A stretch of 64,000 nucleotides of DNA, taken from the NCBI GenBank assembly GCA_030266015.1, contig JAJDHD010000002.1, positions 1 to 64,000 on the forward strand, given 5' to 3'. Positions within the stretch are counted from its first letter, which is position 1. Each line of letters starts with the position of its first letter. Source of the DNA: Christensenellaceae bacterium OttesenSCG-928-K19. Lineage in GTDB: Bacteria; Bacillota; Clostridia; Christensenellales; Christensenellaceae. A program made the position numbers and the translations under genes. The notes beneath the pieces are model-generated. The model saw only the letters and a program-made list of their open reading frames with translations. It was not told the origin of the DNA and searched no databases. Positions 1 through 45,772 of the stretch are shown here, in pieces.

Positions 1-2
1 TG

Positions 3-7632: not shown

Positions 7633-7682
7633 GTATTTATATATAGTGCTATTATTATAGAACGGAGAAAAAGGAGACAGGA

Positions 7683-8447: not shown

Positions 8448-8510
8448 GCGAGAAAGCAAGCTGCTATCTTGTGGAAGCTGGCTAGATGTACAGTAAATTG
8501 GTAACAAAAA

Positions 8511-8544: not shown

Positions 8545-8562
8545 GTTACGGTAACCATCCGG

Positions 8563-9024: not shown

Positions 9025-9172
9025 ACCCAATCTCCCCTGGTTATTGGAATAAGAACGTTTCTTACTTATTATACTTAAACATAATATCGCGGGATAAACT
9101 GGGAACATTAGCTGCGCTCGGAATATCCGCAGTGTGATTTTTCCATTTTTGCCCATTTTCCCTGTTTTTCAC

Positions 9173-9201
9173 AGTATAATAAAACATTTTCAGCCTGTCA
9201 A
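9173..9201 (-). promoter_or_regulatory. strong sigma-A promoter of the pilin gene
   Basis: Read on the minus strand, TTGACA (9201-9196) is followed after exactly 17 bases by TATACT (9178-9173), one base from full consensus. Transcription should begin near 9166, giving a leader of about 140 bases before the pilin start. That leader has a GC-rich segment (about 9105-9130) that may fold, but no known riboswitch was recognised. Confidence 0.85.
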
Positions 9202-9328
9202 GCCGAAGGCATACAAGCGCGCAGACTGTTAAAAATCAAAACTGGTGGTGAAAAAGCTTATCCCTGCTATGCGTCTGTTATCCCTCATAAGCGTGCTGTT
9301 TTATGGGGGGCGGCATTGGCGGTGTTAC

Positions 9329-10381: not shown

Positions 10382-10384
10382 GCG

Positions 10385-12091: not shown

Positions 12092-12185
12092 ATGTGAAGC
12101 TCTCCCAAAACTTTTCTCGTTTGCAGATCCATTCAATTATGATACCATAGTATACGGTATAGAAACAAAACAATGAAGGTATACT

Positions 12186-12953
12186 ATGCAAATTGTTGAA
12201 ATCCTGATGGCAGCGTTTTCGCTGGCGCTGGGCATGGTGCTCGCCAGCTTTTTAAACGTGTGCATTTATCGTATTCCCAAGGGGAAGCCGGTGGCTGCAG
12301 GGCGGTCTGTGTGCCCCAAATGCGGCCATGAGATCCGCGCCTGGGACAACATCCCCATTGTGAGCTATTTCCTGTTAAAACGCAAATGCAGGGACTGTGG
12401 CGCAACCATTTCCGTACGCTACCCTGTTGTGGAGGCAATCGGCGGGGTGTGCTTTTTGCTCACATGGCTGCGGTTTGGCATGGCGTGGGAAACGCCTGTT
12501 ATCTGGACGTTTGCTTGCGTGCTAATCCTCATTGCCTTCATAGACCTCGATACACAGGAGATCCCCGACAGGTTTCACCTGATAATATTGGGACTGGGCA
12601 TTGCCTCCTTTTTCCTGACGGACGGCCCCGGTATCTGGCAGAGGCTGATCGGCGCGGCGGTGATTAGCGTTCCCCTGCTGGTTATTTCACTCGCTACCGG
12701 CGGGTTTGGTATGGGGGATGTAAAGCTGATGGCAGTGAGCGGTTTTTTACTTGGCTGGCAGGCCACGCTGTTTGCCGGGTTTGCGGGCTGTGTCCTTGCC
12801 GCGGTTGTTGCAGGGGTTTTGATTGCCCAAAAGAAGAAAACACGGAAGGACAAGATTGCGTTTGGCCCATACCTTGCAATTGCGTTGTTTGCGGCGGCGC
12901 TCTATGCGCAGCCAATCATTGGGGCATACCTCTCGTTATTCCATATCTATTGA
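12186..12953 (+). CDS. pilD: prepilin peptidase / N-methyltransferase
   Basis: A 255-residue polytopic membrane protease that cuts prepilin leaders and methylates the new N-terminus. The cytosolic zinc site has C43/C46 and C68/C71 (CPKC, CRDC). The catalytic aspartates are visible in FIDLDTQEIPD (D120/D122) and GMGDVK (D178). About seven further hydrophobic segments complete the fold. GAAGG precedes the start by 7 bases. It is divergent from pilB, and its last 18 bases overlap the end of the convergent pilO gene. It is the only prepilin peptidase here and would process all five pilin-like proteins. Confidence 0.95.
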   Translation: MQIVEILMAAFSLALGMVLASFLNVCIYRIPKGKPVAAGRSVCPKCGHEIRAWDNIPIVSYFLLKRKCRDCGATISVRYPVVEAIGGVCFLLTWLRFGMAWETPVIWTFACVLILIAFIDLDTQEIPDRFHLIILGLGIASFFLTDGPGIWQRLIGAAVISVPLLVISLATGGFGMGDVKLMAVSGFLLGWQATLFAGFAGCVLAAVVAGVLIAQKKKTRKDKIAFGPYLAIALFAAALYAQPIIGAYLSLFHIY

Positions 12954-27954: not shown

Positions 27955-30498
27955 ATGGGAAAAGAAAACGGTCGGCGTGACAAGCTTCGGAGTATATCAA
28001 AAAAAGAATACCTGCCCGTTTTGAGCCGATTTTGTGATACGGTCACAGAGCTGTGCCTTGAGGATGGCAGCTATAAGCTGGTGGTGCTGCAAGGCGAGCG
28101 TGATACCTCCGGCGCGCGGGAAGGCGATTACACAACATTAATAGAAACTATAGTGAAGGATTATGTCGATGAGAGCGACCATGCCGTGTTTCGGGATGCG
28201 CTCAGCCTGGACGCAGTTCGCAAGGCAGCACAGCAGGGCAGCGATGTTGTAACCGTGCAATACCGTGTTCGCAGTAATTCGGGGTTCAAATGGGTGGAAA
28301 ACCGGGTCTTTTTGCATTGCGACGGATGGGCGGTTATTGTTTCCCATGATATTGATTACCAGAAGGAATACGCAGGACACAACCAGCGGGATGTCGCACA
28401 ATATGGTGTCGCGTTGCGCAATATTTATGACGAACTATTTGAGATGAATGTCACAAAAAACGAGTTTCGCCTGCTTCACTTCCGCGAGGGGAAATATGTA
28501 AAACCGCCACAAAGCGGCCCACTGGATGCGTTGCTTGAACGCATTGTAGAGGAGATTATATATGTGGAGGACAAGGCGGAATTTGCCGCGTTTATAGACC
28601 CGCAAAAGCAACGGGAATATTTTGCGGAAGGTAGCGAAGCGCGTTTTCTGGAATTTCGTGAGTTGTGGGTAGACCTTGGATACCATTGGGTATCCGCCAC
28701 ATTGTTCCCCTTAGCCAGAGATGGGGAAGAGGGCGACGAGGTTTATCTCTGCTTTATCATGGATATTGATGAAAAAAAGCGGGCCGAAGAAGCAACGGAG
28801 CAAAACAAACAGCTTCAAAAGCAAAAAATGGACGACCAGCGATACCGTATCATTGTGAACCAGACAAATACGTTTGTGTTTGAATGGTACAGGGAAGGGG
28901 ACGCGCGCTATGTCTCCAAGCGGCTGAAAAATCGCTTTCCGGCGGAATATCAGGCGCGGGATGTGCTGGATGTGCTGGAAAAAGAGCTGGTTCATGAGGA
29001 CGATCGGCGGTCGTTTGGCGATTTTGTGGAGGAGCTGAAGCAGACACGGGAAAATAGTGAGGTAACTGTGCGGCTGCTTGATCATAGTGAGGAATATAAA
29101 TGGTGCAGAATTGCCATGACCTATGTCAACGACGAGCAGAAGGAACCGCTTAGGATCATTGGCACCATCAATGATGTGGATGAGGCGGTGCAATCTAAGC
29201 TAGCTCTGTTGCACCGTGCGGAATATGATACGCTTACAGGCATATTAAATATGGATGCGTTCTATGAGCGTGCGCAAGAGCTGGTTCAGGCAAACCCAAA
29301 GAAGAATTATGCAGTGATTCGGTTGGATGTGAACCGCTTTAAGCTGGTGAACGACCTCTATGGGCTGGATGTGGGCGATAATCTTTTAAAGCATATTGCA
29401 AGGGTGTTGGAGAGATGCCTGGCGGTGCGCGAGGCGGTATACGGCAGACTGGGCGGCGATGTGTTTGTGATTTGCGTGCCGTATGGACGGCCGGAGGAGC
29501 TTGTGGTGCTGGTGCGCCGCATTTGGCAGGGCGTGGAGGAATATGACCTGCGGGGGAATAAGGCGTCGCCTTCCTTTGGGATTTGCTATGTAGAGGATCG
29601 CAATATACCCATGAGTATACAATGTGACTGGGCAAACCTTGCGTTAAAGACGGTAAAAGGTAATATGATTAAGCGCTGGGCGTTTTATGGCGGCAAGCTG
29701 CGCGAGCAGCAGCTCGATGAGCGTATGATAGAAAGCAACATGGAAAACGCGCTTAGGAGCAGGCAGTTTGTGTTGTATTTGCAGCCCAAGCATGATATCC
29801 GCACGGGCGGGATTGTGGGGGCGGAAGCGTTGATTCGCTGGAACCACCCTACTGAAGGATTGATGGCGCCTGTACGGTTTGTGCCACTATTTGAACGCAA
29901 CGGGTTTATCATCAAGATGGATGAGTTTGTGTGGGAGCAGGCCTGTGTGCTGCTGCGCAAATGGATCGACAAAAACAAAACGCCTGTGCCTATCTCCATG
30001 AATGTGTCGCGTATACACGCGCTGAATCCGGGGTTTGAAAAAAGACTGCTGGGCATGATCGCGCGGTATAGAATACCGAATGAATTAATAGAACTGGAGC
30101 TGACGGAAAGCACATTTGTGGAAAACCAGCAGGAGCTGTTCCAGACCATGAAGACATTGCAAAACGCAGGGCTCAACGTGTCGATGGATGATTTTGGATC
30201 GGGGTATTCCTCACTTAATATGTTGAAAAGCGTGCCAGTGAATACCATCAAGCTGGACAGGGAATTTTTGAATGAGACAACGGCAACTAGCAAGGGTAAG
30301 ATTATCATGGAGCACACAATATCCATGGTGAATGACCTTGGCCTGAAGGTGGTAGCGGAGGGAGTGGAGACGCAAGGGCAGGCGGATTTTGTCGACAGGG
30401 CAGGCTGTCATATTGCTCAGGGATACCATTACTCCAAGCCGATGCCTATCTGGGATTTTGAAGCGATGCTTTTTAAACAGGGAGACGGCGCGGAATAA
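27955..30498 (+). CDS. c-di-GMP phosphodiesterase with degenerate GGDEF and intact EAL domains
   Basis: An 847-residue cytosolic protein. Three PAS-like regions lie at about residues 30-135, 150-275 and 295-415. The GGDEF domain (about 420-575) has GGDVF at 500-504 with no RxxD site, so it is probably a regulatory GTP-binding module. The EAL domain (about 595-835) keeps the catalytic set: E624 (AEALIRWNHP), N683, E715, D745/D746 (DDFGSGYSSL) and K766. It should hydrolyse c-di-GMP. No membrane helix is seen, unlike the two cyclases in the window. It ends at a strong terminator. Confidence 0.92.
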   Translation: MGKENGRRDKLRSISKKEYLPVLSRFCDTVTELCLEDGSYKLVVLQGERDTSGAREGDYTTLIETIVKDYVDESDHAVFRDALSLDAVRKAAQQGSDVVTVQYRVRSNSGFKWVENRVFLHCDGWAVIVSHDIDYQKEYAGHNQRDVAQYGVALRNIYDELFEMNVTKNEFRLLHFREGKYVKPPQSGPLDALLERIVEEIIYVEDKAEFAAFIDPQKQREYFAEGSEARFLEFRELWVDLGYHWVSATLFPLARDGEEGDEVYLCFIMDIDEKKRAEEATEQNKQLQKQKMDDQRYRIIVNQTNTFVFEWYREGDARYVSKRLKNRFPAEYQARDVLDVLEKELVHEDDRRSFGDFVEELKQTRENSEVTVRLLDHSEEYKWCRIAMTYVNDEQKEPLRIIGTINDVDEAVQSKLALLHRAEYDTLTGILNMDAFYERAQELVQANPKKNYAVIRLDVNRFKLVNDLYGLDVGDNLLKHIARVLERCLAVREAVYGRLGGDVFVICVPYGRPEELVVLVRRIWQGVEEYDLRGNKASPSFGICYVEDRNIPMSIQCDWANLALKTVKGNMIKRWAFYGGKLREQQLDERMIESNMENALRSRQFVLYLQPKHDIRTGGIVGAEALIRWNHPTEGLMAPVRFVPLFERNGFIIKMDEFVWEQACVLLRKWIDKNKTPVPISMNVSRIHALNPGFEKRLLGMIARYRIPNELIELELTESTFVENQQELFQTMKTLQNAGLNVSMDDFGSGYSSLNMLKSVPVNTIKLDREFLNETTATSKGKIIMEHTISMVNDLGLKVVAEGVETQGQADFVDRAGCHIAQGYHYSKPMPIWDFEAMLFKQGDGAE

Positions 30499-30568: not shown

Positions 30569-31081
30569 TTACCTGACTAGTGCATAGATACATGAGTCGG
30601 AGAAAACACCGTTTTTCCATACGCTTTTTTTCAGGGTGCCTTCCAGCGCAAAACCAGCTTTTTCCAGCACGCGACGGGAGCCGATATTGCCCGTAAATGG
30701 TTCTGCGAAAATACGCACGGCATCTGAAGAATGAAATACCATTTGGCATACTTTTTGTATGGCGGCGGACATGATGCCCCGCCCCCAAAACGGCTCGCCC
30801 AGCCAGTAGCCAATCTCCACGCTCTTTTCATAAACATCATCCTGGAAAAACGCGCCAATGCTACCCACAGCCCTGCTGTCCACGCAAATGGCGCGCAGAA
30901 GCTGCTTATGCGGATTCCCGCTTAGGCAGCTTCTTATATATTGCCGCGCGTCTTCCTCTGTGTAGGGATAAGGAAAACCATTGCGAAGGTTATCCGCAAT
31001 GGCTTTGTTGTTGGCGTAATTTGCAATGGAGGGCGCGTCTTCGTAAGCCCATTCCCGCAATGTAAACTCTGTGTTTCCCAT
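30569..31081 (-). CDS. RimJ/RimL-type GNAT acetyltransferase, coupled to the giant surface protein gene
   Basis: A 170-residue acetyltransferase of the RimJ/RimL branch: LREWAYEDAPSIANYANN at the start, GYWLGEPFWGRGIMSAAI (about 90-108, acetyl-CoA loop) and GSRRVLEKAGFALEGTLKKS near the end. This branch acetylates protein N-termini or small amines. Its ATG overlaps the stop codon of the giant surface protein gene by one base (TAATG), so it depends on that gene for translation and both share a transcript. Confidence 0.87.
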   Translation of the reverse strand: MGNTEFTLREWAYEDAPSIANYANNKAIADNLRNGFPYPYTEEDARQYIRSCLSGNPHKQLLRAICVDSRAVGSIGAFFQDDVYEKSVEIGYWLGEPFWGRGIMSAAIQKVCQMVFHSSDAVRIFAEPFTGNIGSRRVLEKAGFALEGTLKKSVWKNGVFSDSCIYALVR

Positions 31082-34000
31082 TAAATAGTTTCCTTTTCCT
31101 TGTGTCGCCTGCGCCGCACAATCAGCAGCAATATGTTTGCCGCTGCAACAGCAAGGATGATATAAACCATCAGATCGAGCTTTTCATCGCCGGTGATGCC
31201 GCCGCGTCCGTTTGTGCCTTTACCAGTGTTGCTGCCGATTCCTGTATCTGTTCCGTTGCCGTTGTTGCCGTTTCCACTGCCATCGTCCTTGTCAAATTCC
31301 ACAAGGATGGTGTGGTCTGCTTCCACCAGCGCGAATGTGTAATAGCTGCCGTTTGTCTGAACTTCCTGATTGTCCACCACCACACGGCTCACCTTGTAGC
31401 CGTTGTCCGGGTAAAAATAGAACGTCTGGCTGTTGCCTGCGGGCACGGTGACACTGCCATCTGGCGAGATGGAGCCGTTTGTACCTGCTGTGGCGCGTAT
31501 GGTGTGCATGGTAACAGGTTCCGGAATATCTACCGTGAAGTCAACCGGGATGACCATATCCGTAAAGTACATGAACATGGTGTAGTCGCCGTTGCCCAGC
31601 GCGCGCAGGTATGATTCATACAGATTAATTACCGTGCTGCCCTCATAGATATCCGCGTCTATGCCGTCGCGGATTTCCTTTCCAAGTATTTCCGCTTTGA
31701 TGAACTTGCTGAAGTTCACATTTATGCCTGCTTCCACGCCTTCCGGTTGCCCAGTGTAGTACTCGTTGATTACATAAAGAATCAGGCTTTGCAGGTCGTC
31801 CTCGGAAAGCCAGTGCGCCAGCACCGATACATCCTGTGCAGGCATTGTTACAACATCACCCGCCGCATAGAATGTGCCGCTCGGCAGGTATTCCCAACCG
31901 ATGAATATATAGCCGTCCTTTGTGGGCGCGTCGGCCAATGCCACCCGCTGTTCGTAGGTGAATTCTACTGGGGCAGGGACGGGCGTGCCACCATCCGCGT
32001 CATAGGTTAATGTATAGATTTCATCATCTTCAAAAGATGTAAGCTCTACTTCAAAGCCATTGTTTGGCGCGGGCATGGCAAAGCTGTCATCCGCTTTGGG
32101 GTCAAAGCCGGCAATGTTGCCGTCGGCGTCGCCACCCTTGTCAATAGCCCACACGGCAATTTTTCCAATCGCCGGGTCGGTGATGTTCGAAGTAAGCGAA
32201 ACATCCACGCCGCTTTTCACGATATCCACCTTCCAGTAGGGGAGTGGGTATCCGGCCTCCAGCGTATAGCTGCCGTTGTTTACCTTGAGCGTGGAATAAG
32301 TACCGTCAAGTTCGCTACCTGTGGTGTCATTGATGCGGCCCTGGCCAATGGAGATGAAGTAATTGCTGCTGCCATCGTCTATTGTCCTGCCATTTGCAAG
32401 CAGGTTCACAGTTGCGCCGCCATCCACATCCAGCACTCCCTGCGTAGCATCGTCTGGGTCTGCAGAGCCGATGTCCTGCGCGCTGCCGCTGCCTGTGGCG
32501 TTTACTGTTGCGCCGTCTATGGTTACGGTGCCGCTGCCGCCCGCATTTGCAGGGGGTGTGGCTGTGCCGCCGCCGATGCCTGTGCCACCACCGTTGCCAG
32601 TCGCGGTAACGGTGGTTTGGCTGCCGGAGATTACGATATCACCGCCGCTGCCGCCGCTTGTGCTGCCACCCGCGCCGCCAATACCCGCGCCGCCATTGTC
32701 ACCGCCTGTCGCAGTCACGGTGCCGCCGGTGATTGTTACATCACCGCCATTGCCGGCTGTTGCCGCGCCACCGCCACCGATGCCCGCGCCGCCGCCGTTG
32801 CCGTTTGCCGTCACAGTTCCGCCATTTATTGTCACGGTGGTGCTGCTGCCAGCACTGCCACCGCCAATACCCGCACTATTGGGACTGCCGTTTGCTTCTA
32901 CCGTGCCGTTTTTTATTGTAATGCTGTTGCTGCCCGCGCCCGCGCCGCCGCCGATGCCTGCGCCGCCGTTTGCACCATTTGCTGTTATCTTGCCAGTGGA
33001 GTCAATCGTGACGCTGTCACTGCTGCCCGTGCTGCCGCCGCCAATGCCCGCACCGCCGTTTGTGCCGTTTGCCGTCACATTGCCGCTGCCACCGATGCTG
33101 ATGGACTCGCCATTGCCGCCATTGCCACCGCCGATGCCTGCGCCGCCGCCGTTGCCTGTGGCATTCACTGTGCCGCTGTCACTGATAGAAACAGTGCCGC
33201 TGTTGCCGCCACTGCCGCCGCCAATACCTGCAGCGCCTGTTGTGCCCTGCGCGGTGATGGTGCCGCTCGTAATATTGATGGTGCCGGCGTTTGCGGAGGA
33301 TCTGCCGCCGCCAATGCCCGCGCTGTTTGTGCCGCCTGTCGCGGAGATTGTGCCACCCGCGATGGTGATTTCATTACCTGTGGGAACCTCAATACCCGCG
33401 CGGTTTGCGCCGCTTTGTAGTGTGGCGCTGCCCTCCACTGTAAGGGCGACATTAGAACCGCTCGTAAGCGCGAACGCCGGGTTATTAGAAACGATGGAGC
33501 CGCCTACGTTTACATCCTTCAGCTTCACCAATACAGGGTCTGAGGAATCGCCGGCGTTGTTTACTGTCACGCCATAGGGGACGGCGGTATTCTTATCAAG
33601 CTGCGTGATTAAAATGACCTCGTCTTTGTCGTATAGCCTGGTGACTGTGCCGCCTGTTGTTGTCTGCGTTACCAGGAACTGCGAGCCGCTTTCGGTAATC
33701 ACGATATTGCCATAATCCAGCTTGAAGTCATAGTCCTGCCATGTTACGCGGTTCTCCTTGACGCCCGGCGTGCCAGTTACCACTTCCGCCCAACCGTTTG
33801 TTACTGCGCCCACGTTCACCTTGGCATAAAGCCCGGCTGGCAGCCAGATCCATGCGCTGTCTTTAAAGGAAGAACCGTGTTCACCGCCCGCTGTAACTGT
33901 TTTTACGGGATAGTTGGTTGTGTTGCCGTTAATCGCAATAACAAACCCGGGAGTAAGGGCGCTGGCTGTTCCCGCGTCTTTTTTCGCGGGTACGACCACC

Positions 34001-37000
34001 TTATAAACGGGGGTTGTGCCATTGCTGGTGGCATTGTCTACAGTCTCCGCATAAACGCTACCGCCTGTAATCTTGGTGGTGCCGGGAGTACCGTTTGTGC
34101 TGCCCATGCCATAGCCGATGTCGCGCGCCGCCAAATTGGAGCCGCCACTTGCAGTCACATAGCCGCCTGTGGAGATGGTTACAGCGCCGCCCGTGCCACC
34201 TGTGCCGGTATTGGAACCACCGCCGCCAATGCCCGCGCTCTTTTGCCCGTTTGTCTTGGTGCGCACTGTTGCGCCCGGGATGGTGATGCTGCCACCTGCA
34301 CCGCCCGCGCCACTGCTTGTGTTATATCCGCCGCCAATACCCGCGCCATTTGCGCTGGTAGAGTCTACGGTGTTGCTTGTGATTGTGATACTGCCACCCG
34401 CGCCTGCCGCGGTTGTGCTGTCCGATCCGCCGCCGCCAATGCCTGCGCCTGTAGCTGCTGTTGCGGTAACCGTGCTGCTATCAACAGTGATGGTGCCGCC
34501 TGCCGCATATGCGCCGCCGCCAATGCCTGCGCCGTATCCGCCTGCTGTGCCATACACCGTGCCGCCGTTGATATCCACTGTGTGCGAATTACGCCTGCCA
34601 CCGCCGATGCCTGCGCCGTGGCCGCCTGTTGCTGATGCGATACCGTGCACCTCGCCGTTATTTATGATGATGCTGCCGGTTGTCTGTCCGGTGGAGGCAT
34701 TGCTGCCGCCACTGCCGATGCCTGCGCCTATGCCGTTGCCATAGCCTTTTACTACTCCGCCATTTACTGTGATTGCCGCCGTGCCCAGGCTACCTGCCGT
34801 GGCAGACCCGCTGCTGCCGCTGCCAAGGCCCGCACCGTTTGTGCCGCCTGTTCCCGTAACTGTACCGGTGGCAATGGAAATTCCGCTTGCGGAAACCGCA
34901 CCGCCCGCGGCTGTATTGCTGCCGCCGCCACCGATGCCCGCGCCATAGCCATTGCCTGTTGCGGTAACGACTGTATTTGTGCCATTGATTACAATTGTGC
35001 CGCTTGCGCCGCCAATGGCTGCGTTGTTGCCGCCGCCGCCAATGCCTGCGGCGTTAACGCCACCCTGCGTTGTGATATTGCCCGCGGTAACAGATATGGT
35101 GCCGCCTGTGCCGCCTGTGCCGCCGCCAATGCCTGCGCCGTAATTGCCGCCTTGCGCGTTAATTTTGCCGCCGTTTATTGTGACAGTACCAGCGTTGCCA
35201 TTGCTGCCGCCGATACCTGCGCCGTTTGTGCCGCCTGCTACGGAAAGGATGTCGGTTGTGCCGTTTGTGGCGTTTAAGGTAAGCGTGCAGCCGCCGGGGA
35301 CGCTGATGCCCGCGTAGCCGCTTCCAGAAAGTAGCTTTGTTTCCACATAAGCCGGCGTGGTATATGCCGGATCTACACTTTCATTGCGCAGGCTGTCTAT
35401 GGTTAATTGCACGTTTGCGCCGTTTGAAAGCGTGATAGCGCCTGTCGTGCCTGTGCGTGAGATGTACATACCGCCCTTTAGTGTGATATTCCGTTGAGTC
35501 AGGTTGGTGCCATCCACGCTGATGCCGTAGTTCCAGCTGTTTCCTGCGGTAGTGGGGTCGTTTTCCTGCATAATAACAAGCTTTGCACCTGTTTTCAGCT
35601 TGCGTGTTGTAGCAGGGTTTGTGCCGTCGTTTTGTACCACCTGCATCATGTTTGTGCCCGACCCGCCGGGGTTGCTGATGGCGATATTGCCATAATCGAT
35701 ATAAAGAGCAATGCTGGGGGACTCCCAATACACTTCGTTTTGGCCGGAGAGGGGAGTACCCGTGACGACATCCGCCCAACCGGAATAGGCGGGGGTGATG
35801 CCGCTTACGTTCACACCATTGCCAGAAATTCCTTCGATAAAGCCTTCGGGTAGCCAGATATGCGCTGCGTCCGGGAAGGTGAGGCCGGTTGCGTTGTGCT
35901 GGTTATTTGTATTTACCGTTATTGCGGAATAAGTGGTTGCCCCGCTGTTGTATTGCGTGGTTACGGTTCTGCCTGTGGCAAGGTTTACGGCAGTGCCATC
36001 CTTGTATTTGGGCACAACAACACTGAACACAGCCGTACCTGCCGTGTTTTGCGCGTTTTTCACGTTATTGTTTACCGCCCACACGCTGCCGCCTGTGATA
36101 GTAGCCGTACCCGATGTGCCGCCGTTTGCTGCGCCAATATCGGCACAGCCTGTGCCGCCATTTGCCGTCACATAACCGTTGCTGATGGCCACGTTGCCAC
36201 TGCTGCCGCCCGTGCCATTTGCCGACTGGCCGCCACCGATACCAGCACCGCCGCCAATCGCAACAATGATTGTGCTGCTTTGTGCAATCGTAACCGTGCC
36301 GCCCGCACCGCCTGTGCCGCTGCCCGCCGCCGCGCCACCGCCGATTCCCGCGCCGCCGCCTGTCGCCTTTACAGTGCTGGCTGCGGTGGAGCCAATAACT
36401 ACAGCGCTGTAACCGCTGCCGCCGTTTTGGTTGCCGCTTGTTGCGCTGCCACCGCCAATGCCTGCGCCACCACCCGTTGCTGTTATCTGTGCGTTATTAA
36501 TGGTGATGGAAGCACCGGCGTTGCCGCCCGCGCTGCCACCGCCGCCACCGATGCCCGCGCCACCTGTGCTGCCGCCGGTTGCGTTCACGCTGCCGCCGCT
36601 GATGGTTACGGTACTATAGCCAGCACTACCCGTACCACCGCCAATACCTGCGCCGGATGAAGCAGTGCTTGCCGCCGCTGTTACCGTGCCGGCTTTTATT
36701 ACGATGGAGGAAGCCGTACTTGCACCTGCCGCGCCATTACCACCGCCGCCAATGCCCGCGCCGCCTGTGCCGCCACCGTTTGCCGTTACAGTGCCGGTGT
36801 TTATAGTAACAATATCATAGCCAACCTTGCCACGCGCACCGCCAATGCCCGCGCCGCCGTCATACCTGCCGCCACCTGTTGCCGTCACTCTTGTAGACGT
36901 GCCGGAAACGGTGAACGCGCTGCCCGTGCCACAATCGCCGCCAATGCCGGGAGCTGCGCCATAGCCGGTAGCCGTCACATTTGCGTTGCCGGAGATATCC

Positions 37001-40000
37001 ACCTGTGATCCGCCACTGCCGAAGTATGGGTCGGCCGCGCCATTGTTGTTGCCGCCGCTGCCGATGCCTGCACCGCCGATCTGGCCATTGCCTGTGCCGT
37101 TATTGCTGCCGCCTGTGGCATGGATTGTTCCGCCGGTGATAGAAAGGGTGGAGAGGCCGCCCGGCACTGTGCTGCCAGTACTGCCGCCACCGCCAATACC
37201 CGCGCCAAAGCCGCCGCCCGTGGCGCGTACGGTGCCGCTGGTGGAAAGAATAACCGGAACACTGCCTTGTGCGCTGCTGCCACCAATACCCGCGCCGCCG
37301 CCGTGGCCGCTGTCCATATTGCTGCCGCCCTGCGCTGTTACACCGCCGCCGGAGATTGTGATTTTATGCGCGGTATCATCGGAATCATACACGCCGCCGA
37401 TACCGGGAGAACCGCCCATTCCATACGCGTTCACCGTGCCGCCCGAAATTGTGATTAATCCCGGCTTACCCGATTGCGATGCGTTTGCCGCGTTGTAACC
37501 GCCGCCAATGCCCGCGCCATGTAGTGGGGCAGGGGTGCTTGTCCTGCCGCCATATGCGTTCACAGTGCCGCTTGTGCTGATGGAGATGGTGGTGGCGCTG
37601 CCCGCGGGGGTGCTGCTGTTATTGCTGCCGCCGCCGCCCAGCCCTGCGCTATAGCCGCCGCCATATGCTGTCACGTTTGCGTTGCCGCTGATGGAAATGG
37701 GTACACTGCTTTGGCCTGTGTTGCCGCCAATGCCCGCGCCACCAGCAACAGAAGTGGTAACAGCATTGCCGCCAGTCGCCTCTACCTTGCCGCCCGAAAT
37801 TGTGATTTTGTGCGCGGTGTCGTCATTGTTATAATATCCGCCGATGCCCGCGGATGCGTTAATTCCCATTGCTGTCACTTCGCCGCCCGAAATGGTAATA
37901 AGTCCGGGTGCGCCCGATTGTGCCGGGTATTGTAAGTTATAGCCACCGCCAATGCCCGTGCCGCCGTTGCTCAACGCACTGCCGCCCGTGGCCGTCACTT
38001 CGCCGCCGGAGATGGTAATTTGCGTGCCGCCTCCGGCAGGGATGTTATTTGCCGTGCCGCCGCCGCCAATGCCCGCGCCGCCGCCCGAGCCTGTGGCAAT
38101 CACCGTGCCGCCTTTTATTTCAATGGCAGTCGCATCCTGCCCGTTGCTGCCGCCGATGCCCGCGCCGCCGGTTTGGCCGGTTGCCGCGTAAGCCGTCACC
38201 TCTACGGCGTCGCTTGAGTTTGCGCCGATGGTGATTTTGCCGGCGGTGTCGCTGCTACCGCCGATGCTGGCGCTAAAGCCGCCGCCGGTTGCCTCCACGG
38301 TCGCACCGTCTTTAATCGTGATTAAGCCGGGCTTGCCGATAGTGAGGCTGGAGTTGCTTTGCTGCCCGCCGCCAATGCCGGTGGCATATCTCGCGGTCGC
38401 GGCCACTTTTGTGTTTGCGCCGCTGATGGTAAGGGAGGTGCTGTCGCCGCCCGTGCCGGAGACGATCTGCCCGCCGCCGATTCCCGCGCCGCATGTGCCC
38501 GCGGTTGCCGTTACCGTGCCGCCTGTTATGCTGATGGCACCGCCATTTTGGCCTTGCCCGCCGCCAATACCCGCGCCGCCCACGCCACCTGTTGCGGTTA
38601 GCGTTGGAGTGGCGTTTGCTGCTGTAATCGTAACGGCACTGTTGTTTGTGCCATCGTAAGATACATCCACACCCGCAAAGCTGTCGCCCGCCTTCAGGCT
38701 GTTGGCGCCTTGCAGCTCCAGAATTGCGCTTGCAGCGTCCGTGTCGGTTTGTATAATAAATGCCGGATCGTTTGTTGTACGTGCAATGTCAATATTGCGG
38801 ATCATTGTTTTCACGGCATAGGTTGCGCCTGTATTCCTCACGAAAATACCGTGGTCGATGCTGTCTGTGCCGCCATCACGCCGGTTGGTATCGATAATGC
38901 GGATGGGGTCCATGGTGCCCGAAAAACTGACATTGCGTGCCACTTCTTCAGGAGAGCCAAATCGTACCTTCAGTTTGCCGGAGTTCAGGTCGTCCGGCTC
39001 TATGATAATGTCACCTTCCGCAATATCGTAATAATACTGGGGTGGGACACTTTCCCAATATACATAGTTGATGCCGGTGTCGTATACGCGTGCCCGGCCC
39101 TCGTCCTTTGCACCCACAGTTACCTGCCGTGTGGCGCTGCCGTCCAGCCGCATCTCGGGAAGCCACAGCACCGCGCCCCAAGCTATCCCGTCACTGCCCT
39201 GGAAGCTGCTGCCATGCTCCTGACCGGCAGTGCTTACGGTGCGCGCGTTGTATCCGCCCAGGCTTATGCCGGTGTAAACGGCCTGTACATCCATATCAAG
39301 CAGAGAATCGCCACCAGGCCCCGCAAACCCGTCTACTGTGGCGGGCACAACAACCGGATAGACGTTTTTGCCATTGCCATCTGTTGCCTGCATGTTTTTG
39401 TCGTTTTTGGGCCATACACTGCCGCCCGTGATGGTGAGTGAGCCACCGTTGCCGCCGCCTGTGCCGATGTCCTGGTTGCCGCTTGCCGTCACAAAGCCGC
39501 TGGAAATAGCAATTACACCAGCACCGCCACTGCTGCCGCCGCCAATACCCGCGCTGCTTGTGCCGCCTGTCGCTGTGACAATACCGCCACTGATGGTGAT
39601 TGTGCCGCCTGCTGCGCCACGTCCGCCACCAATGCCCGCGCCGCTTGGGCTGCCCGTGGCAATGACCGTGCCGTTTGTAATGACGATGTTGCCGCCAGAG
39701 CCGCCAGAGCCGCCACCGATGCCCGCACCTGTGCTGCTGCCGCCTGTCGCCGTTACAGTGCCACCGTTTATTGTGATGGCATTACCACCGGTGCCGCTCT
39801 CGCCGCCGCCAATGCCTGCGCCGCTTGAGCCGCCAGAGGCGGTTACCGTGCCGTTATTTATTGTGATTTTACCAGCGCTTCCAGTACTATTGCCGCCAAT
39901 GCCCGCGCCGCGTCCACTGGCAGACGCAGTCAACACACCGCTACCACCGTTTATAGAGAGCTCACAATCGCTTGGCACATTGAGGGCTGCATTGACACCC

Positions 40001-43000
40001 GAGGAAACGAGTGAGGCAGTGCTGCCGATGGAAAGCAGTACGTTTGCGCCATCCACAAGGCCAAGCGGGTTTCCGCTTGTAGGATTAAATGCGGTTTGAT
40101 CCAGCATAAGCTGGACAGGGGCGGTCATATCTGTACCGTTTACTGTAACCGTTATGGAACGTGATGTTACAGGAGCCTGCTCAATCAGCCGGATCAAATA
40201 ATGGTTGGCGACATCTTCTTTCACAACCCCGCCAATCAAAATCTCCAGCGTTTTTGCCGTGCCTTGCTTTTGACGGATGAGTATATTTTTCCCGTTAACG
40301 CTGTCGTCGATATGAATGGGGAGTTCAGGGGGCCAATAGAGCATGTTTTCCGGGGGATCTTCGTCAAAATCCGGATTCCCGCCGGGATCGGGAACACCCC
40401 GCACCACATCCGCGCGCGCGGTAGCGTTTACGCCTGTTATTGTAATATTCGAATAATATGTCGCATCAGGGTCGTCGGTCGCTTCCAGCCAGAGATATGC
40501 CACGGCGCTCTCGTCCAAAGAGGTTCCATCCAGGGGAGAGGCAGCGGTATAGGCAATGTAGGTGTAGGACTCTTGGCGCACAGCAACCTGTTTGCCGCCC
40601 GAAACATCGCCGCCAAGGTTGCCTTTTTTACGCACGGTCACGCGCATTGCCGGGTCGCCGTTTGCTCCTATAGGATTGGAGATCATGCTGTCGGCTTCAT
40701 TCGGGCCGCTGCGTGTGGGCCACACATTGCCGCCTGTAATGGTGGTGACAGCTCCGGCATTTGTGCCGCCGATATCCATGCTGCTGCCGCCGCCCGTAGC
40801 GACGATAAAGCCGCTTTGTATAGAGATGCCGTTTACAGACCCGCCTGCACCAGCGCCAATGCCCGCGCCGGTTGTGCTGGTGGCGGTTACTTTTGTGTTG
40901 TCAGCCACATTGATGTTGATGGTTTTATCGCCCGCGCCCAGACTGTTTGCGCCTCCGCCAATGCCCGCACCACTGTTTCCTGTTGCGGTGATCTCCGCAG
41001 AGCCAAGAATATTGATTGCGCCCCAAGAGCCGTTTGCACCACTGCCAATTGCCGCACCGTCCGCGCTGTTTGTTACAGAAAGGGAGCCGGATGGAAGGTC
41101 AATGGTAATACCTTGTACCATGCCACTCTGTCCGCTGCCAATTGCCGCGCCGCTGCCGTTACTTATTGCTATTAAGCTACCACCTGTTATGGAGATATCC
41201 CCGCAGGTCTGGCCGCTGCCGCCGCCAATGCCAGCGCCGTTGCCGTTGCCAGTGGCTGTTACAGTACCGCCAAGGATTGTCACATTGCCAGAGGTGGTGG
41301 GGTTGCCGCCGCCATCTGTGCCAACAAGGCCGCCGCCGATACCCGCGCCGCCGCCGTTTCCAGTCGCAGTTATTTTGCCGGATACGATAGTGATGTCACC
41401 ACTTGTAAGTCCGCTGCTGCCGCCAATACCCGCGCTATCCGCCCCGCCGGTAGCAGACAACTCACCGCCGCGGCTGTTTAGGTTGCTTATGGTGAGCGCG
41501 CCGTTCTCCGGTACACGGATGGCCGCGCCTGCTGTGGAAGCAAGCGTAATGTCCTTAAAAAGCATCAGGTTGATATTGGACTTGCTGCCCTCGTCCAATG
41601 CTGTGGCAAAGTTAAACGATGGACCAGCACTGGTTACATTTAATCCCTCCACATGCAGGTTGACAGGGATGTCTGTTTTGGAAGTTACCAGCAAGTTGTT
41701 GCTGGTTGCTGTATTACGGTAATTTGACTGGGTGATTACAATGGTTTTACTGCGGTCTATTCCCAGCAAAGAGGGGAATGCGCCGGGGTCAAGTCCGGGC
41801 TGTTCTGCCTTCAGTGTGCCGTCATCATTCTCTATTATTGTGATATTACCCGCAGCCAAGTCAAATTCATATTCATACCAAAACACTTCATTAACAGGTG
41901 GGATTTCCGTTGTGTCATGGCCGGTATCCTTCACAAAAGCCCGCCCGGTGCTGGTCGTGTTGGCAGGCAGGGTAATGCCACTGCCGGTTAATGAAATGCC
42001 AGTGTAATCGTCATCATACTTGGGTAACCAGATATAAGCGGCCATGTCTGCGCCGTTGTGTTCATTTCCAAGTTCGGTAACGGTATTTGCCGTATAATTA
42101 TTTGGAAGAGGATCGCCATTTGCATATACAGTCAGCGCTGCGTCGGTCAGCGTCTGCGTTATCCCATAGATAGATGTTTCTTTTGGGACATATACACAAT
42201 AGGCCTCTGTGTCATAAGTGCCGTCAGTGGGGTCGGTATATACGGGGTCGGTTTTGCCTTGCACCGGGTAAACGCTACCGCTTTTGATTTTAAGATTTAC
42301 AGCAGCAGCACCATTGCCGCTACCGATGTCGTTGTGATCTGCGCTGCCAGAGTTGGCCGTTACATAACCACCGTTGATTGTGATGGTGCCACCTGGGGCA
42401 TTATTACCGCCGCCGATGCCTGCCCCGCCACTACCGTCGGCTGTGGCCTGTACAACACTGTTCTCAATAGTGATGGAACTTAGGTTGTTGCCGTTGCCGC
42501 CACCAATGCCTGCGGCGCTGACGCTGCCAAATGCTGTAACATTGCTGTTTTGGATGGTAATAGACCCGCCGGAATTTGTATTGGTAGAATTACCAATACC
42601 CGCGCCACCTTGCTGGCCCCTTGAAATGACAGTAGTATTTTCAATAGTGAGTGTTCCGCAGGTTTGGCTCGTATTATATACGCTGTTGGAGCCAATGCCA
42701 GGTGCCATGAAACCGGTTGCGGTTAATGTTGCAGAACCTGTGGAGGTAATAAGTAAAGAACGCTTAGAACCGGAAGAACTGACGAAACTGGAAACGTCGA
42801 TTGCCGGCCATCCACCGCCAGAGCTTGAGGTACCGCTTAGTGTGCAATTTGTGCCATCTGTGAGTTGTATTGTAGCGTCAATATTATCGTTCCCAGACTT
42901 GTAGACATAAATGGAAGGCCGGTTGCCGCTTGTCAGTGTGCCAACCTGGGACATGGACACAGTGCCGGTGATAACAAGTGTGGATTCGTGTTCAAGGTAA

Positions 43001-43866
43001 AAGGCTCTGTAGCCATATGATCCGTTATATTGTCCGTCGGTCGCATTATTGCCCGTAATGGTGACGGTTTTACCAGCAAGTACGGTAATGATTCCGGTGC
43101 TTGCGTTATAGCTGTAGTTTAATGAAGCCGCACCTGTGGTCAACTGTGCGTCCGTTGCGGTGGAAAGGTTGACAAAGTCGCCATCAGTTATGCCATCAAG
43201 GATGGACATGGGCGCAATGCCCATAACCACGGCAACTTCCACTTGGGGGAGTGTGAGGCCGCTTGCCAGCGTGTAGCCTGTGGCTAATTTGGGGGTAAAC
43301 AAAAAGCTGCTGCCAATCGCATCTTTATTGTATTCTGCATCGCATACCCAGGATTCGACAGGGATGCTGATTGTTTCGCCTTTATCATTTGTGCCGGTGA
43401 GGAAAGAGGGGAAGGGGATATCCGCCTGCTCCGTGCCGCTTGGAATCTCCAGCCGGGCGCTTGTTTCGTCCAACATATCCAGAAATGAAATGGTAACAGG
43501 GGCCATTACGTCTGCCGTGTCGGTTGAGGGCGTGGAAGGCTGGGGCGTTCCTGTGGAGGAAGAGCCCTCGTTGCCTTCGGGCTTGTTGTTATCGTCGATT
43601 AAAGAGGGCGGCTCGCTGTCAGGGTCGGTTGTAGTGGACGGAGCAGCGTTTTCCTGCGCATTTCCACCTGTTTGTCCTGTGCTGTCATTGCTGCCAGATG
43701 ACGTGCCGTCTGTATTTTCTATGTTGCCGGTTTCGCCGACAGTTGCAGGGAAGATATTCCCCTGCGCCATTGTTTGTAAGGGTATCATTACAGAAAAAAT
43801 GATAACTAAAATGATTCCAACAAACCTGCTAGTAACCTTATATTTCTTTTTGCCGATCCTTCTCAT
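31081..43866 (-). CDS. giant secreted repeat protein / adhesin-like (4,261 residues)
   Basis: One uninterrupted frame. A signal peptide (about 1-35) and a Ser/Thr/Asn/Gly-rich linker (to ~120) precede six related super-blocks. Each has a beta-strand opening (NITII.., DKNTAVPYGVTV type), a run of short repeats centred on GAGIGGG with strand and T-A-T-G motifs (TINGGTVTATG), a closing SVWP/SVYP...VVVP piece, a xxIWLP segment and a closing (N)xVYWE motif. Approximate block limits: 43170, 41866, 40325, 39050, 35725, 33735 and 32200. The repeats predict stacked beta-helix. The C-terminus has an InlB-like repeat (YTLTYDADGG..., about 32010-31800), a small GSISPDGSVTVPAGNSQTF domain, a TGD motif, a membrane helix and RRRRHKEKETI. 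Strand-rich GC content is higher than in flanking genes. Surface adhesion or matrix role is an inference. Confidence 0.85.
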   Translation of the reverse strand: MRRIGKKKYKVTSRFVGIILVIIFSVMIPLQTMAQGNIFPATVGETGNIENTDGTSSGSNDSTGQTGGNAQENAAPSTTTDPDSEPPSLIDDNNKPEGNEGSSSTGTPQPSTPSTDTADVMAPVTISFLDMLDETSARLEIPSGTEQADIPFPSFLTGTNDKGETISIPVESWVCDAEYNKDAIGSSFLFTPKLATGYTLASGLTLPQVEVAVVMGIAPMSILDGITDGDFVNLSTATDAQLTTGAASLNYSYNASTGIITVLAGKTVTITGNNATDGQYNGSYGYRAFYLEHESTLVITGTVSMSQVGTLTSGNRPSIYVYKSGNDNIDATIQLTDGTNCTLSGTSSSGGGWPAIDVSSFVSSSGSKRSLLITSTGSATLTATGFMAPGIGSNSVYNTSQTCGTLTIENTTVISRGQQGGAGIGNSTNTNSGGSITIQNSNVTAFGSVSAAGIGGGNGNNLSSITIENSVVQATADGSGGAGIGGGNNAPGGTITINGGYVTANSGSADHNDIGSGNGAAAVNLKIKSGSVYPVQGKTDPVYTDPTDGTYDTEAYCVYVPKETSIYGITQTLTDAALTVYANGDPLPNNYTANTVTELGNEHNGADMAAYIWLPKYDDDYTGISLTGSGITLPANTTSTGRAFVKDTGHDTTEIPPVNEVFWYEYEFDLAAGNITIIENDDGTLKAEQPGLDPGAFPSLLGIDRSKTIVITQSNYRNTATSNNLLVTSKTDIPVNLHVEGLNVTSAGPSFNFATALDEGSKSNINLMLFKDITLASTAGAAIRVPENGALTISNLNSRGGELSATGGADSAGIGGSSGLTSGDITIVSGKITATGNGGGAGIGGGLVGTDGGGNPTTSGNVTILGGTVTATGNGNGAGIGGGSGQTCGDISITGGSLIAISNGSGAAIGSGQSGMVQGITIDLPSGSLSVTNSADGAAIGSGANGSWGAINILGSAEITATGNSGAGIGGGANSLGAGDKTININVADNTKVTATSTTGAGIGAGAGGSVNGISIQSGFIVATGGGSSMDIGGTNAGAVTTITGGNVWPTRSGPNEADSMISNPIGANGDPAMRVTVRKKGNLGGDVSGGKQVAVRQESYTYIAYTAASPLDGTSLDESAVAYLWLEATDDPDATYYSNITITGVNATARADVVRGVPDPGGNPDFDEDPPENMLYWPPELPIHIDDSVNGKNILIRQKQGTAKTLEILIGGVVKEDVANHYLIRLIEQAPVTSRSITVTVNGTDMTAPVQLMLDQTAFNPTSGNPLGLVDGANVLLSIGSTASLVSSGVNAALNVPSDCELSINGGSGVLTASASGRGAGIGGNSTGSAGKITINNGTVTASGGSSGAGIGGGESGTGGNAITINGGTVTATGGSSTGAGIGGGSGGSGGNIVITNGTVIATGSPSGAGIGGGRGAAGGTITISGGIVTATGGTSSAGIGGGSSGGAGVIAISSGFVTASGNQDIGTGGGNGGSLTITGGSVWPKNDKNMQATDGNGKNVYPVVVPATVDGFAGPGGDSLLDMDVQAVYTGISLGGYNARTVSTAGQEHGSSFQGSDGIAWGAVLWLPEMRLDGSATRQVTVGAKDEGRARVYDTGINYVYWESVPPQYYYDIAEGDIIIEPDDLNSGKLKVRFGSPEEVARNVSFSGTMDPIRIIDTNRRDGGTDSIDHGIFVRNTGATYAVKTMIRNIDIARTTNDPAFIIQTDTDAASAILELQGANSLKAGDSFAGVDVSYDGTNNSAVTITAANATPTLTATGGVGGAGIGGGQGQNGGAISITGGTVTATAGTCGAGIGGGQIVSGTGGDSTSLTISGANTKVAATARYATGIGGGQQSNSSLTIGKPGLITIKDGATVEATGGGFSASIGGSSDTAGKITIGANSSDAVEVTAYAATGQTGGAGIGGSNGQDATAIEIKGGTVIATGSGGGAGIGGGGTANNIPAGGGTQITISGGEVTATGGSALSNGGTGIGGGYNLQYPAQSGAPGLITISGGEVTAMGINASAGIGGYYNNDDTAHKITISGGKVEATGGNAVTTSVAGGAGIGGNTGQSSVPISISGNANVTAYGGGYSAGLGGGGSNNSSTPAGSATTISISTSGTVNAYGGRTSTPAPLHGAGIGGGYNAANASQSGKPGLITISGGTVNAYGMGGSPGIGGVYDSDDTAHKITISGGGVTAQGGSNMDSGHGGGAGIGGSSAQGSVPVILSTSGTVRATGGGFGAGIGGGGSTGSTVPGGLSTLSITGGTIHATGGSNNGTGNGQIGGAGIGSGGNNNGAADPYFGSGGSQVDISGNANVTATGYGAAPGIGGDCGTGSAFTVSGTSTRVTATGGGRYDGGAGIGGARGKVGYDIVTINTGTVTANGGGTGGAGIGGGGNGAAGASTASSIVIKAGTVTAAASTASSGAGIGGGTGSAGYSTVTISGGSVNATGGSTGGAGIGGGGGSAGGNAGASITINNAQITATGGGAGIGGGSATSGNQNGGSGYSAVVIGSTAASTVKATGGGAGIGGGAAAGSGTGGAGGTVTIAQSSTIIVAIGGGAGIGGGQSANGTGGSSGNVAISNGYVTANGGTGCADIGAANGGTSGTATITGGSVWAVNNNVKNAQNTAGTAVFSVVVPKYKDGTAVNLATGRTVTTQYNSGATTYSAITVNTNNQHNATGLTFPDAAHIWLPEGFIEGISGNGVNVSGITPAYSGWADVVTGTPLSGQNEVYWESPSIALYIDYGNIAISNPGGSGTNMMQVVQNDGTNPATTRKLKTGAKLVIMQENDPTTAGNSWNYGISVDGTNLTQRNITLKGGMYISRTGTTGAITLSNGANVQLTIDSLRNESVDPAYTTPAYVETKLLSGSGYAGISVPGGCTLTLNATNGTTDILSVAGGTNGAGIGGSNGNAGTVTINGGKINAQGGNYGAGIGGGTGGTGGTISVTAGNITTQGGVNAAGIGGGGNNAAIGGASGTIVINGTNTVVTATGNGYGAGIGGGGSNTAAGGAVSASGISIATGTVTGTGGTNGAGLGSGSSGSATAGSLGTAAITVNGGVVKGYGNGIGAGIGSGGSNASTGQTTGSIIINNGEVHGIASATGGHGAGIGGGRRNSHTVDINGGTVYGTAGGYGAGIGGGAYAAGGTITVDSSTVTATAATGAGIGGGGSDSTTAAGAGGSITITSNTVDSTSANGAGIGGGYNTSSGAGGAGGSITIPGATVRTKTNGQKSAGIGGGGSNTGTGGTGGAVTISTGGYVTASGGSNLAARDIGYGMGSTNGTPGTTKITGGSVYAETVDNATSNGTTPVYKVVVPAKKDAGTASALTPGFVIAINGNTTNYPVKTVTAGGEHGSSFKDSAWIWLPAGLYAKVNVGAVTNGWAEVVTGTPGVKENRVTWQDYDFKLDYGNIVITESGSQFLVTQTTTGGTVTRLYDKDEVILITQLDKNTAVPYGVTVNNAGDSSDPVLVKLKDVNVGGSIVSNNPAFALTSGSNVALTVEGSATLQSGANRAGIEVPTGNEITIAGGTISATGGTNSAGIGGGRSSANAGTINITSGTITAQGTTGAAGIGGGSGGNSGTVSISDSGTVNATGNGGGAGIGGGNGGNGESISIGGSGNVTANGTNGGAGIGGGSTGSSDSVTIDSTGKITANGANGGAGIGGGAGAGSNSITIKNGTVEANGSPNSAGIGGGSAGSSTTVTINGGTVTANGNGGGAGIGGGGAATAGNGGDVTITGGTVTATGGDNGGAGIGGAGGSTSGGSGGDIVISGSQTTVTATGNGGGTGIGGGTATPPANAGGSGTVTIDGATVNATGSGSAQDIGSADPDDATQGVLDVDGGATVNLLANGRTIDDGSSNYFISIGQGRINDTTGSELDGTYSTLKVNNGSYTLEAGYPLPYWKVDIVKSGVDVSLTSNITDPAIGKIAVWAIDKGGDADGNIAGFDPKADDSFAMPAPNNGFEVELTSFEDDEIYTLTYDADGGTPVPAPVEFTYEQRVALADAPTKDGYIFIGWEYLPSGTFYAAGDVVTMPAQDVSVLAHWLSEDDLQSLILYVINEYYTGQPEGVEAGINVNFSKFIKAEILGKEIRDGIDADIYEGSTVINLYESYLRALGNGDYTMFMYFTDMVIPVDFTVDIPEPVTMHTIRATAGTNGSISPDGSVTVPAGNSQTFYFYPDNGYKVSRVVVDNQEVQTNGSYYTFALVEADHTILVEFDKDDGSGNGNNGNGTDTGIGSNTGKGTNGRGGITGDEKLDLMVYIILAVAAANILLLIVRRRRHKEKETI
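37358..38420 (-). repeat. three tandem ~0.43-0.44 kb units inside the giant gene
   Basis: Marker segments encoding (S)DTAxKITI recur at about 37358, 37802 and 38231 (spacings 444 and 429 bases), and each is followed at matching distances by PGLITI, GxxNxxGG and GGGY-type segments. The copies have diverged, but their order of motifs is the same. This lies in the fourth and longest super-block and shows growth by in-frame duplication. Confidence 0.75.
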
Positions 43867-44254: not shown

Positions 44255-45772
44255 CTAGCCCTTATGGTACTGGATTTGGTTGCGCCCGCCCCTTTTGGCT
44301 TCGTAAAGCATCTGGTCGGAGCATTCCAGCCATCGCTCAATTTGGTCTTCCCGCTGGGCGGTAAGTGAGCAGCCGCCAATACTGACAGTTATGGGGATGT
44401 CTCCTGCACTGGTGGAGAAGGGCTGCACATTCACAGCGTTTAAAATGCGCTCGGCGGTTTCCATGCCGCCCTGCTTGTTTGTGCCTTCCACCAAGATGAC
44501 AAACTCCTCGCCACCATATCGGCAAAAAACATCTGTTTTTCGCAACACTTGGCTGCAAATACGGCACAAGGTTATCAAGACTTCATCTCCAATAATATGG
44601 CCGTAGGTATCATTAACCCTTTTGAAATGATCAATATCCAGCATAAGCAAGGTAAGGGGCTGGTTGTGCCGTGCGGAATGCAAAACACTATTTTTGGAGT
44701 ATTCGTCAAAATAGCGTCTATTCTTGATGCCGGTTAGCGCGTCTTTAGCCGCAAGTGAACTGAGTTTGTTCATTTGCTCACGGAATTCCGTTACCTCACG
44801 GATTAGGAATCCATCACCACAGTCACGGCTTATTGTGTCGCTTATTTGGAAAGAGGAAATGCGGTAATATTTGAATGCATCATCCGATTCCAGCTCGAAT
44901 TCCGCTTCTTCCAACCCAGCAAGCCCGTTTTGCCCAACAAGCTTTTCCAGCGAGAGCAAGGTGGGGGCCTGCGTATTACAAAATCTTTGGAAAAACTCCC
45001 GACCGGCCCGGTTTGCGTCCACGCAACTACCCCATCGATCAAACAATACATAAATTTCCCCGGTATGGGAGATCGCCTTGTTGCGCGCCGAGTGCAGGTA
45101 TTGATAAAAGATATTGGTGATGAATAATACGGGGATAAACATCAATAGGTATGCAGGGTGGATGCCTGCAAGATAGGGTGTAGCCATTTCCAACAGGCTG
45201 AAAAGCGACGGGAAAATGGAGATGGCAACGATGATCCAGATCAGTCGACGGTTGCGTTTTGCTGCGTTGCGGATTGTTAAAAAGGCATTAAGGATGACCA
45301 CGCCAACAAGGATATAAGAATAAATTGCCAGAGGGGCACTGAGCTTTCCGTAAACGAAAAAGAAGCCGAAGCTGTCGGCGCTTTTTTCCACAGATTCCAC
45401 AATCAGGTGATGGAAAGGGTTTGTGATGGCAAGCACCAAGACTAGCACAGGGACAATGAACAGCAAACGAAAATAAGTCCTTCGCTTTTCTGAAATTTTG
45501 CCAATCAAAAATACCATGGTGAGGGCAAAAGCTGTGTTGGAAAGTGTCATTGTGGCAACAAGGAGGGCGGTAAAACGTAACAGGGTATCGCTGTCTTGCA
45601 CAAAATAGCAGGTTACCAGCAACAGAACAGACACAAAAGTAATCGCGATAAAGATAAGGCAATAATTCAGCCCGGGTACCTTTTGCGATGTATATTTGAA
45701 ATAGCTACAAAACAACATGACCAATATAGCAAGGCCAACAGTAGCCAGCATGATGGTGAGTGTGTTATACAT
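44255..45772 (-). CDS. diguanylate cyclase with 7-helix membrane sensor and PAS-like domain
   Basis: A 505-residue c-di-GMP synthase. The N-terminus is a 7-helix membrane module of the type found on some histidine kinases (about residues 5-225). A PAS-like domain follows (about 235-330), then GGDEF with intact GGEEF at 420-424 and an RxxD inhibition site (R411, D414). The start at 45772 follows AAGGGGG by four bases. It lies upstream of the giant surface protein gene on the same strand but has its own promoter, and the two are separated by a 388-base gap. Confidence 0.92.
   Translation of the reverse strand: MYNTLTIMLATVGLAILVMLFCSYFKYTSQKVPGLNYCLIFIAITFVSVLLLVTCYFVQDSDTLLRFTALLVATMTLSNTAFALTMVFLIGKISEKRRTYFRLLFIVPVLVLVLAITNPFHHLIVESVEKSADSFGFFFVYGKLSAPLAIYSYILVGVVILNAFLTIRNAAKRNRRLIWIIVAISIFPSLFSLLEMATPYLAGIHPAYLLMFIPVLFITNIFYQYLHSARNKAISHTGEIYVLFDRWGSCVDANRAGREFFQRFCNTQAPTLLSLEKLVGQNGLAGLEEAEFELESDDAFKYYRISSFQISDTISRDCGDGFLIREVTEFREQMNKLSSLAAKDALTGIKNRRYFDEYSKNSVLHSARHNQPLTLLMLDIDHFKRVNDTYGHIIGDEVLITLCRICSQVLRKTDVFCRYGGEEFVILVEGTNKQGGMETAERILNAVNVQPFSTSAGDIPITVSIGGCSLTAQREDQIERWLECSDQMLYEAKRGGRNQIQYHKG

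Follow-up and report, generated by a model that had tools for sequence, protein, structure and literature searches.

A predicted 4,261-residue surface protein with six Beta_helix_3 arrays and a recurrent linker

The gene and its neighbourhood

The window, by which we mean the whole 64-kb stretch of DNA analyzed here, contains one uninterrupted frame of 4,261 codons that fills positions 31081-43866. A preliminary description of this DNA had claimed a single open frame of 12.8 kb with these coordinates, and both the frame and its limits proved correct; the strand was absent from that description, and the frame runs on the minus strand, from 43866 to 31081. A plus-strand reading of the same interval was ruled out by its many stops. 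The gene and its neighbors, the latter assigned by reading the sequence, are as follows.

31081..43866, minus strand: whole giant gene, 4,261 aa plus TAA, with its ATG at 43866 and GGGGG ahead of it as a possible ribosome-binding site
30569-31081: GNAT-type acetyltransferase gene, downstream, overlapping the giant gene's stop by one base (TAATG)
27955-30498: GGDEF-EAL protein gene, downstream and convergent
44255-45772: GGDEF membrane protein gene, upstream

Among 100 order-1 random sequences matched in composition, no stop-free run exceeded 371 codons, compared with 4,261 here, and the motif G[AT]GIGG occurs 37 times as against a shuffled mean of 0.1, which excludes a chance frame. Since the window contains no N and exact DNA repeats in the giant gene all stay below 28 nt (two reach 24 nt), collapse or duplication during assembly is unlikely. 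The core of the gene has a G+C content of 59-61% versus about 42-52% in most of the flanks, as expected from its Gly and Ala codons; the protein is 20.8% Gly, 11.9% Thr and 9.3% Ser.

The TAATG overlap means that translation of the giant gene and the GNAT-type gene may be coupled. A sortase operon was ruled out because the overlapping downstream gene is that for the acetyltransferase, and the same reading of the flanking genes found no dedicated export or sortase gene among them. Two putative cyclic-di-GMP signaling genes flank the giant gene, an arrangement that would fit control of a surface fiber and may be due to chance. The host is an uncultured Clostridia-type bacterium whose genome is 72% complete. 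A search with one section of the protein (block 5, below) found no match in a congeneric genome that is 91% complete (G299), so the presence of the gene is patchy; the host's is the only genome in which we found the gene.

Block architecture and terminal regions

The protein can be divided into an N-terminal region, six repeated blocks and a C-terminal region, all encoded on the minus strand.

43762..43866, minus strand: predicted signal peptide, residues 1-35, MRRIGKKKYKVTSRFVGIILVIIFSVMIPLQTMAQ, from hydropathy, with a putative cleavage site
43177..43761, minus strand: Ser/Thr/Gly-rich stretch and small beta domain, residues 36-230
41800..43176, minus strand: block 1, residues 231-689, with opening, short GAGIGGG array and linker
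41872..42279, minus strand: linker 1 core, residues 530-665, GSVYP...CVYVP...IWLP...VFW
40330..41799, minus strand: block 2, residues 690-1179
40333..40734, minus strand: linker 2 core, residues 1045-1178, GGNVWP...LWLE...LYW
39010..40329, minus strand: block 3, residues 1180-1619, which with the start of block 4 makes up model 1
39052..39426, minus strand: linker 3 core, residues 1481-1605, GGSVWP...VVVP...LWLP...VYWE, with weak beta-sandwich matches
35665..39009, minus strand: block 4, residues 1620-2734, with an 836-aa array
36853..38181, minus strand: three tandem super-repeats of ~148 aa in block 4, residues 1896-2043, 2044-2191 and 2192-2338
35722..36093, minus strand: linker 4 core, residues 2592-2715
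33685..35664, minus strand: block 5, residues 2735-3394
33739..34065, minus strand: linker 5 core, residues 3268-3376
32380..33684, minus strand: block 6, residues 3395-3829, opening and array with no full linker, used for model 2
31813..32016, minus strand: Flg_new / Listeria-Bacteroides (InlB) B-repeat, PF09479, residues 3951-4018
31507..31806, minus strand: unassigned domain that recurs in further surface proteins encoded by this genome, residues 4021-4120
31285..31506, minus strand: divergent InlB B-repeat, PF18998, residues 4121-4194
31084..31284, minus strand: Gly/Asn-rich wall-spanning tail, GGITGD sorting-like motif, TM helix and RRRRHKEK

All pairs of blocks match one another in BLASTP, with E values from 1e-17 to 1e-105 and 28-43% identity. 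At the start of every block stands a beta-rich opening, GNIxI...LxSGxxxAGIxVPxGxxLTI, which forms the N-terminal part of each predicted solenoid and is the piece most widespread in other genomes; GAGIGGG coils follow, most commonly spaced 29-31 residues apart, and the array ends in an '(x)DIG' motif. The preliminary description had six super-blocks sharing one order of motifs. There are indeed six GAGIGGG arrays, but the stretch described as SVWP...VVVP, IWLP and VYWE occurs in blocks 1-5 only; block 6 keeps its end motif, as 'QDIG', and then passes directly into the C-terminal region. Within the five full linkers the stretch is real while its exact letters vary: SVWP occurs once, the others reading NVWP, SVYP, SVWA and SVYA, with VVVP in three blocks, IWLP or LWLP in four and YWE in two; the consensus is GG[SN]V[WY]x ... 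V.VP ... xWLP ... V[YFT]W. Block 4, at 1,115 aa, was said to be more than twice as long as the others, which is true with respect to blocks 1, 2, 3 and 6 (2.3-2.5 times) but not block 5 (660 aa; 1.7 times). Its array of 836 residues compares with 121-394 in the other blocks, and part of the excess comes from the three tandem super-repeats, whose copies are 56% and 49% identical in amino acid sequence and 68% in DNA, a level of divergence implying that the duplication is old.

At the N terminus, a basic and hydrophobic segment (hydrophobic stretch at residues 10-36 by hydropathy) has an end similar to that in a paralog elsewhere in the genome (contig C45), IPLQSMAQ. The region that follows it, residues 36-230, had nothing above cut-off in Pfam or NCBIfam. 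At the other end, a single TM helix is followed by RRRRHKEK, and the tail is homologous, with 38-40% identity, to those of proteins on two other contigs (C127 and C66) that end in SPKTGD, a TM helix and RRRK. Export of the giant protein is predicted from its signal segment, from the TM helix with RRRRHKEK, and from this homology to the SPKTGD surface proteins.

How the C terminus is held is less clear. The genome has eight sortase matches, and GGITGD keeps the T, G and D of the paralogs' SPKTGD but has lost the proline; its tail, with helix and RRRR present, scores 12.6 bits against LPXTG_anchor (TIGR01167), below the 15.9 cut-off. Given the missing proline and the low score, covalent anchoring in the wall is not assured. 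Similar proline-free ends occur elsewhere in the genome (GSVRTGD, GGVRTGD and GGVSTGD, on contigs C54, C59 and C96, loci L107, L111 and L108) as well as in relatives (GGVKTGD, KAAKTGD and TNSKTGD), and therefore the proline-free GGITGD end (31084-31260) may belong to a tolerated class of sorting signal. It is equally possible that the giant protein stays in place as a plain membrane protein. A literature search for 'VRTGD' or 'GAGIGGG' found nothing. As a separate observation, two large surface proteins of this genome ending in ARTGRDGLP or AKTGRDGLP (C82, locus L138; C59, locus L137) are each encoded next to a sortase, an arrangement that suggests pairs of one substrate with its dedicated sortase.

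Repeat family, predicted fold and relatives

The repeat family, which the preliminary description could not name, is by profile match PF18889, Beta_helix_3: Pfam finds it in 37 stretches (E 6e-29), scoring 99.8 bits versus a curated cut-off of 27 bits. The survey by Monzon et al. (PMC8286594) lists it among the stalk domains of fibrillar adhesins, and among the few of these for which no pairing with a known adhesive domain was seen. At E <= 0.001 it is present in 13 of 299 genomes of the phylum, the host included; in the other genomes the frame that carries it usually has 700-1,700 residues.

The earlier suggestion of a beta-solenoid was supported by structure prediction. Model 2 (AlphaFold2; residues 3387-3830, the opening and array of block 6) is a solenoid predicted with confidence along the greater part of the chain (pLDDT 83.0, pTM 0.87), whereas in model 1 (residues 1180-1790) the array is confident (pLDDT about 85-95) and the opening and second junction are poor. 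With neither model did Foldseek return anything at E <= 0.001; the probable cause is the poor scoring of low-complexity solenoids and, in model 1, of the low-confidence ends. When the Foldseek candidates were aligned to model 2 with VIA-align, 63 chains reached Z >= 8, and parallel beta-helix proteins dominated the structural matches. The best was the Lactobacillus reuteri SRRP 5ny0 (Z 19.9, rmsd 3.9 over 296 residues, 15% identity), and the SRRP binding region (5ny0, 5nxk) also matched model 1, with Z 10.8; other neighbors of model 2 were UpaB (Z 18.4), AlgE6/AlgE4 (18.1), EtpA (14.7-16.3) and pertactin (15.3), together with TibA, PL6 lyases, tailspikes and pectate lyase. These leading matches are beta-helix proteins. 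The models thus support a parallel beta-helix of the SRRP/pertactin type for the GAGIGGG blocks. For the linker, residues 320-426 of model 1 gave weak matches to pilin and CnaB-type sandwiches (Z about 2-4), which suggests an Ig/CnaB-like sandwich.

The linker matches no family in Pfam or NCBIfam. Linkers within the gene are 59-68% identical in DNA, and a linker profile run across the class found the opening half widely and the xWLP half rarely. Using a single-array query, we found relatives in contigs of other genomes (a contig scan with query A3 gave 54 pattern matches, of which 0 were confirmed). The order of GAGIGGG array and then GGSV...YG..D....G..YLWLP is shared by further Bacillota and by a Coriobacteriia MAG (L083), and a Kiritimatiellae MAG from goat duodenum (L077) has it repeatedly. 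In the latter, one frame runs on past both ends of the fetched stretch (1-12845), exceeds 4,281 residues and contains no fewer than seven GAGIGGG arrays, along with eight xWLP sites; a related rumen MAG, RUG10640 (L078), also has repeated arrays followed by the xWLP linker. Both of these share the two elements with the giant protein but differ from it in that its own linkers form a separate clade. A Lachnospiraceae protein of 3,185 aa (L074, 331-9885) is alike in having repeated arrays, five in number, but differs in its three Flg_new domains, its YDG and MBG domains and its VQTGD end, and there is a multi-array protein in Acidimicrobiales (L081).

In the linker tree, the five linkers of the giant protein group together (97/94) and those of the Kiritimatiellae protein, which is of similar size, fall outside this group; independent multiplication of the blocks is therefore probable. 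The most parsimonious reading, limited by long branches, is of an array-linker unit that either has an old origin or has passed from lineage to lineage, with separate multiplication in each. A more ambitious proposal, which we put forward tentatively and think somewhat unlikely, is that the solenoid-linker pair would be a transferable glycan-binding unit of at least three phyla, independently multiplied into multi-headed adhesin rods that bind by the surface of the stalk itself, with the linker as a new domain family.

Proposed role and comparison with known systems

We think it probable that the giant protein is a Sec-exported, C-terminally held rod of six solenoids with linker spacers, most likely a fibrillar adhesin. 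The signal peptide would direct export via Sec, and the C terminus would be held in the membrane or cell wall so that the rod projects from the cell. The rod would consist of six parallel beta-helices, each with a core of GAGIGGG coils of about 29-31 residues. Behind five of the helices would come a small beta linker domain that may serve as a spacer or hinge. The rise of a beta-helix is 0.48 nm per coil; from this standard geometry we infer that ~2,800 solenoid residues, at 28-30 per coil, would make about 95-100 coils and 45-50 nm, and that five linkers and three tail domains would bring the rod to 60-80 nm. Besides its predicted export, the protein shares with fibrillar adhesins its length, its repeated stalk domains and its TM-tail anchor, and the adhesin rod is also supported by the InlB-type repeats near the anchor, the homology to SPKTGD tails and the recurrence of the array-linker order in other phyla. 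As neither Pfam nor NCBIfam recognized an adhesive domain, the protein can be said only to work like a fibrillar adhesin and is not a member of the surveyed set by the survey's own rule.

Adhesion itself we infer from these features. The SRRP solenoid attaches to epithelial cells and to mucin, and also binds polygalacturonic acid and rhamnogalacturonan I (PMC6973325); by analogy with that shared fold, at 15% identity, the solenoid faces of the giant protein would bind glycans such as plant pectins, mucin or the polysaccharide of another bacterium. What speaks against an SRRP-like binding role is that the likeness is one of fold only, and that the fold is common to many enzymes.

The strongest alternative, to which we give roughly one chance in four, is a pure stalk or steric coat, in which inert solenoid spacers hold the N-terminal ~200 residues away from the cell or cover up neighboring proteins of the surface. 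This would be in keeping with the classification of PF18889 as a stalk domain without known adhesive partner (PMC8286594), with arrays dominated by G, T, A and S that have no evident common set of binding residues, and with the position of the N-terminal beta domain farthest from the anchor. That domain (about 110 aa), however, matches no known adhesive domain, and the nearest solved folds include adhesins that bind through the solenoid itself, as SRRP does (PMC6973325).

The remaining alternatives are much weaker. A Periscope-type protein, whose repeats expand and contract to vary its length between strains, seems improbable: the giant protein is a surface protein with repeated domains, and block 4 contains a tandem triplication, but with no exact DNA repeat reaching 28 nt (only the two of 24 nt) rapid change in block number is unlikely, the linkers are only 59-68% identical in DNA and the block 4 repeats 49-56% in amino acids, and TRF shows no long tandem arrays of high identity. 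Still less probable is a polysaccharide-active enzyme with each solenoid a lyase- or epimerase-like catalytic module, a reading encouraged by AlgE4/AlgE6, PL6 lyases, tailspikes and pectate lyase among the fold neighbors and by a GH3-type beta-glucosidase-like gene 10 kb away (sequence reading); no catalytic family model matched in Pfam, PF14262 (Cthe_2159) is absent even at E 10, and six diverged, low-complexity coil arrays are unlike the conservation of an active site. A phage tail fiber or mobile-element protein, suggested by the fold of beta-helix tailspikes and by the absence of a match in the 91%-complete congeneric genome, is scarcely credible for a gene with a signal peptide and C-terminal TM helix among ordinary chromosomal genes; searches of 50,697 phage records and 72,556 plasmid records came back empty, and an IMG/VR scan with block 5 as query gave no confirmed relative.

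These results supply a name and a predicted fold for a type of gene that pipelines annotate as 'hypothetical' or 'InlB B-repeat-containing', and they show GAGIGGG arrays accompanied, from Bacillota to Kiritimatiellae, by a recurrent linker outside Pfam and NCBIfam. Should the solenoids prove to be glycan-binding, proteins of this type would act as multivalent rods gripping mucus or plant fiber in the gut; single blocks, at about 450 residues, should be easy to express and test.

Several named systems are close to this protein. The binding region of L. reuteri SRRP (5ny0, 5nxk) has the same parallel beta-solenoid fold, but SRRP combines one solenoid with a serine-rich repeat region, whereas the giant protein has six solenoids and its repeats are GAGIGGG coils rather than the serine-rich repeats of that class. 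For the SecA2/SecY2 accessory export that marks SRRP, a search with acc_sec_Y2 gave no match in the 72%-complete genome, where housekeeping SecY also lacked the weak match seen in controls. Giant1-4 of Apilactobacillus kunkeei are likewise extracellular proteins of thousands of residues with an SRRP-like solenoid (PMC12863079); there, a single N-terminal solenoid sits on rods of alpha-helical or beta domains with SH3b-like C termini, while in the giant protein the solenoids themselves would form the rod and the C terminus is TM/sorting-like. The Beta_helix_3 stalk proteins (PMC8286594) are alike in repeat family, surface-protein context and Bacillota hosts, although the relatives that we found mostly have one array, compared with six arrays and five linkers in 4,261 aa here. 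What is new is modest: a recurrent unannotated linker, the apparent independent multiplication in two phyla, and a proline-free sorting-like signal. The giant protein is a very large example of the known bacterial stalk proteins rather than a new type of system.
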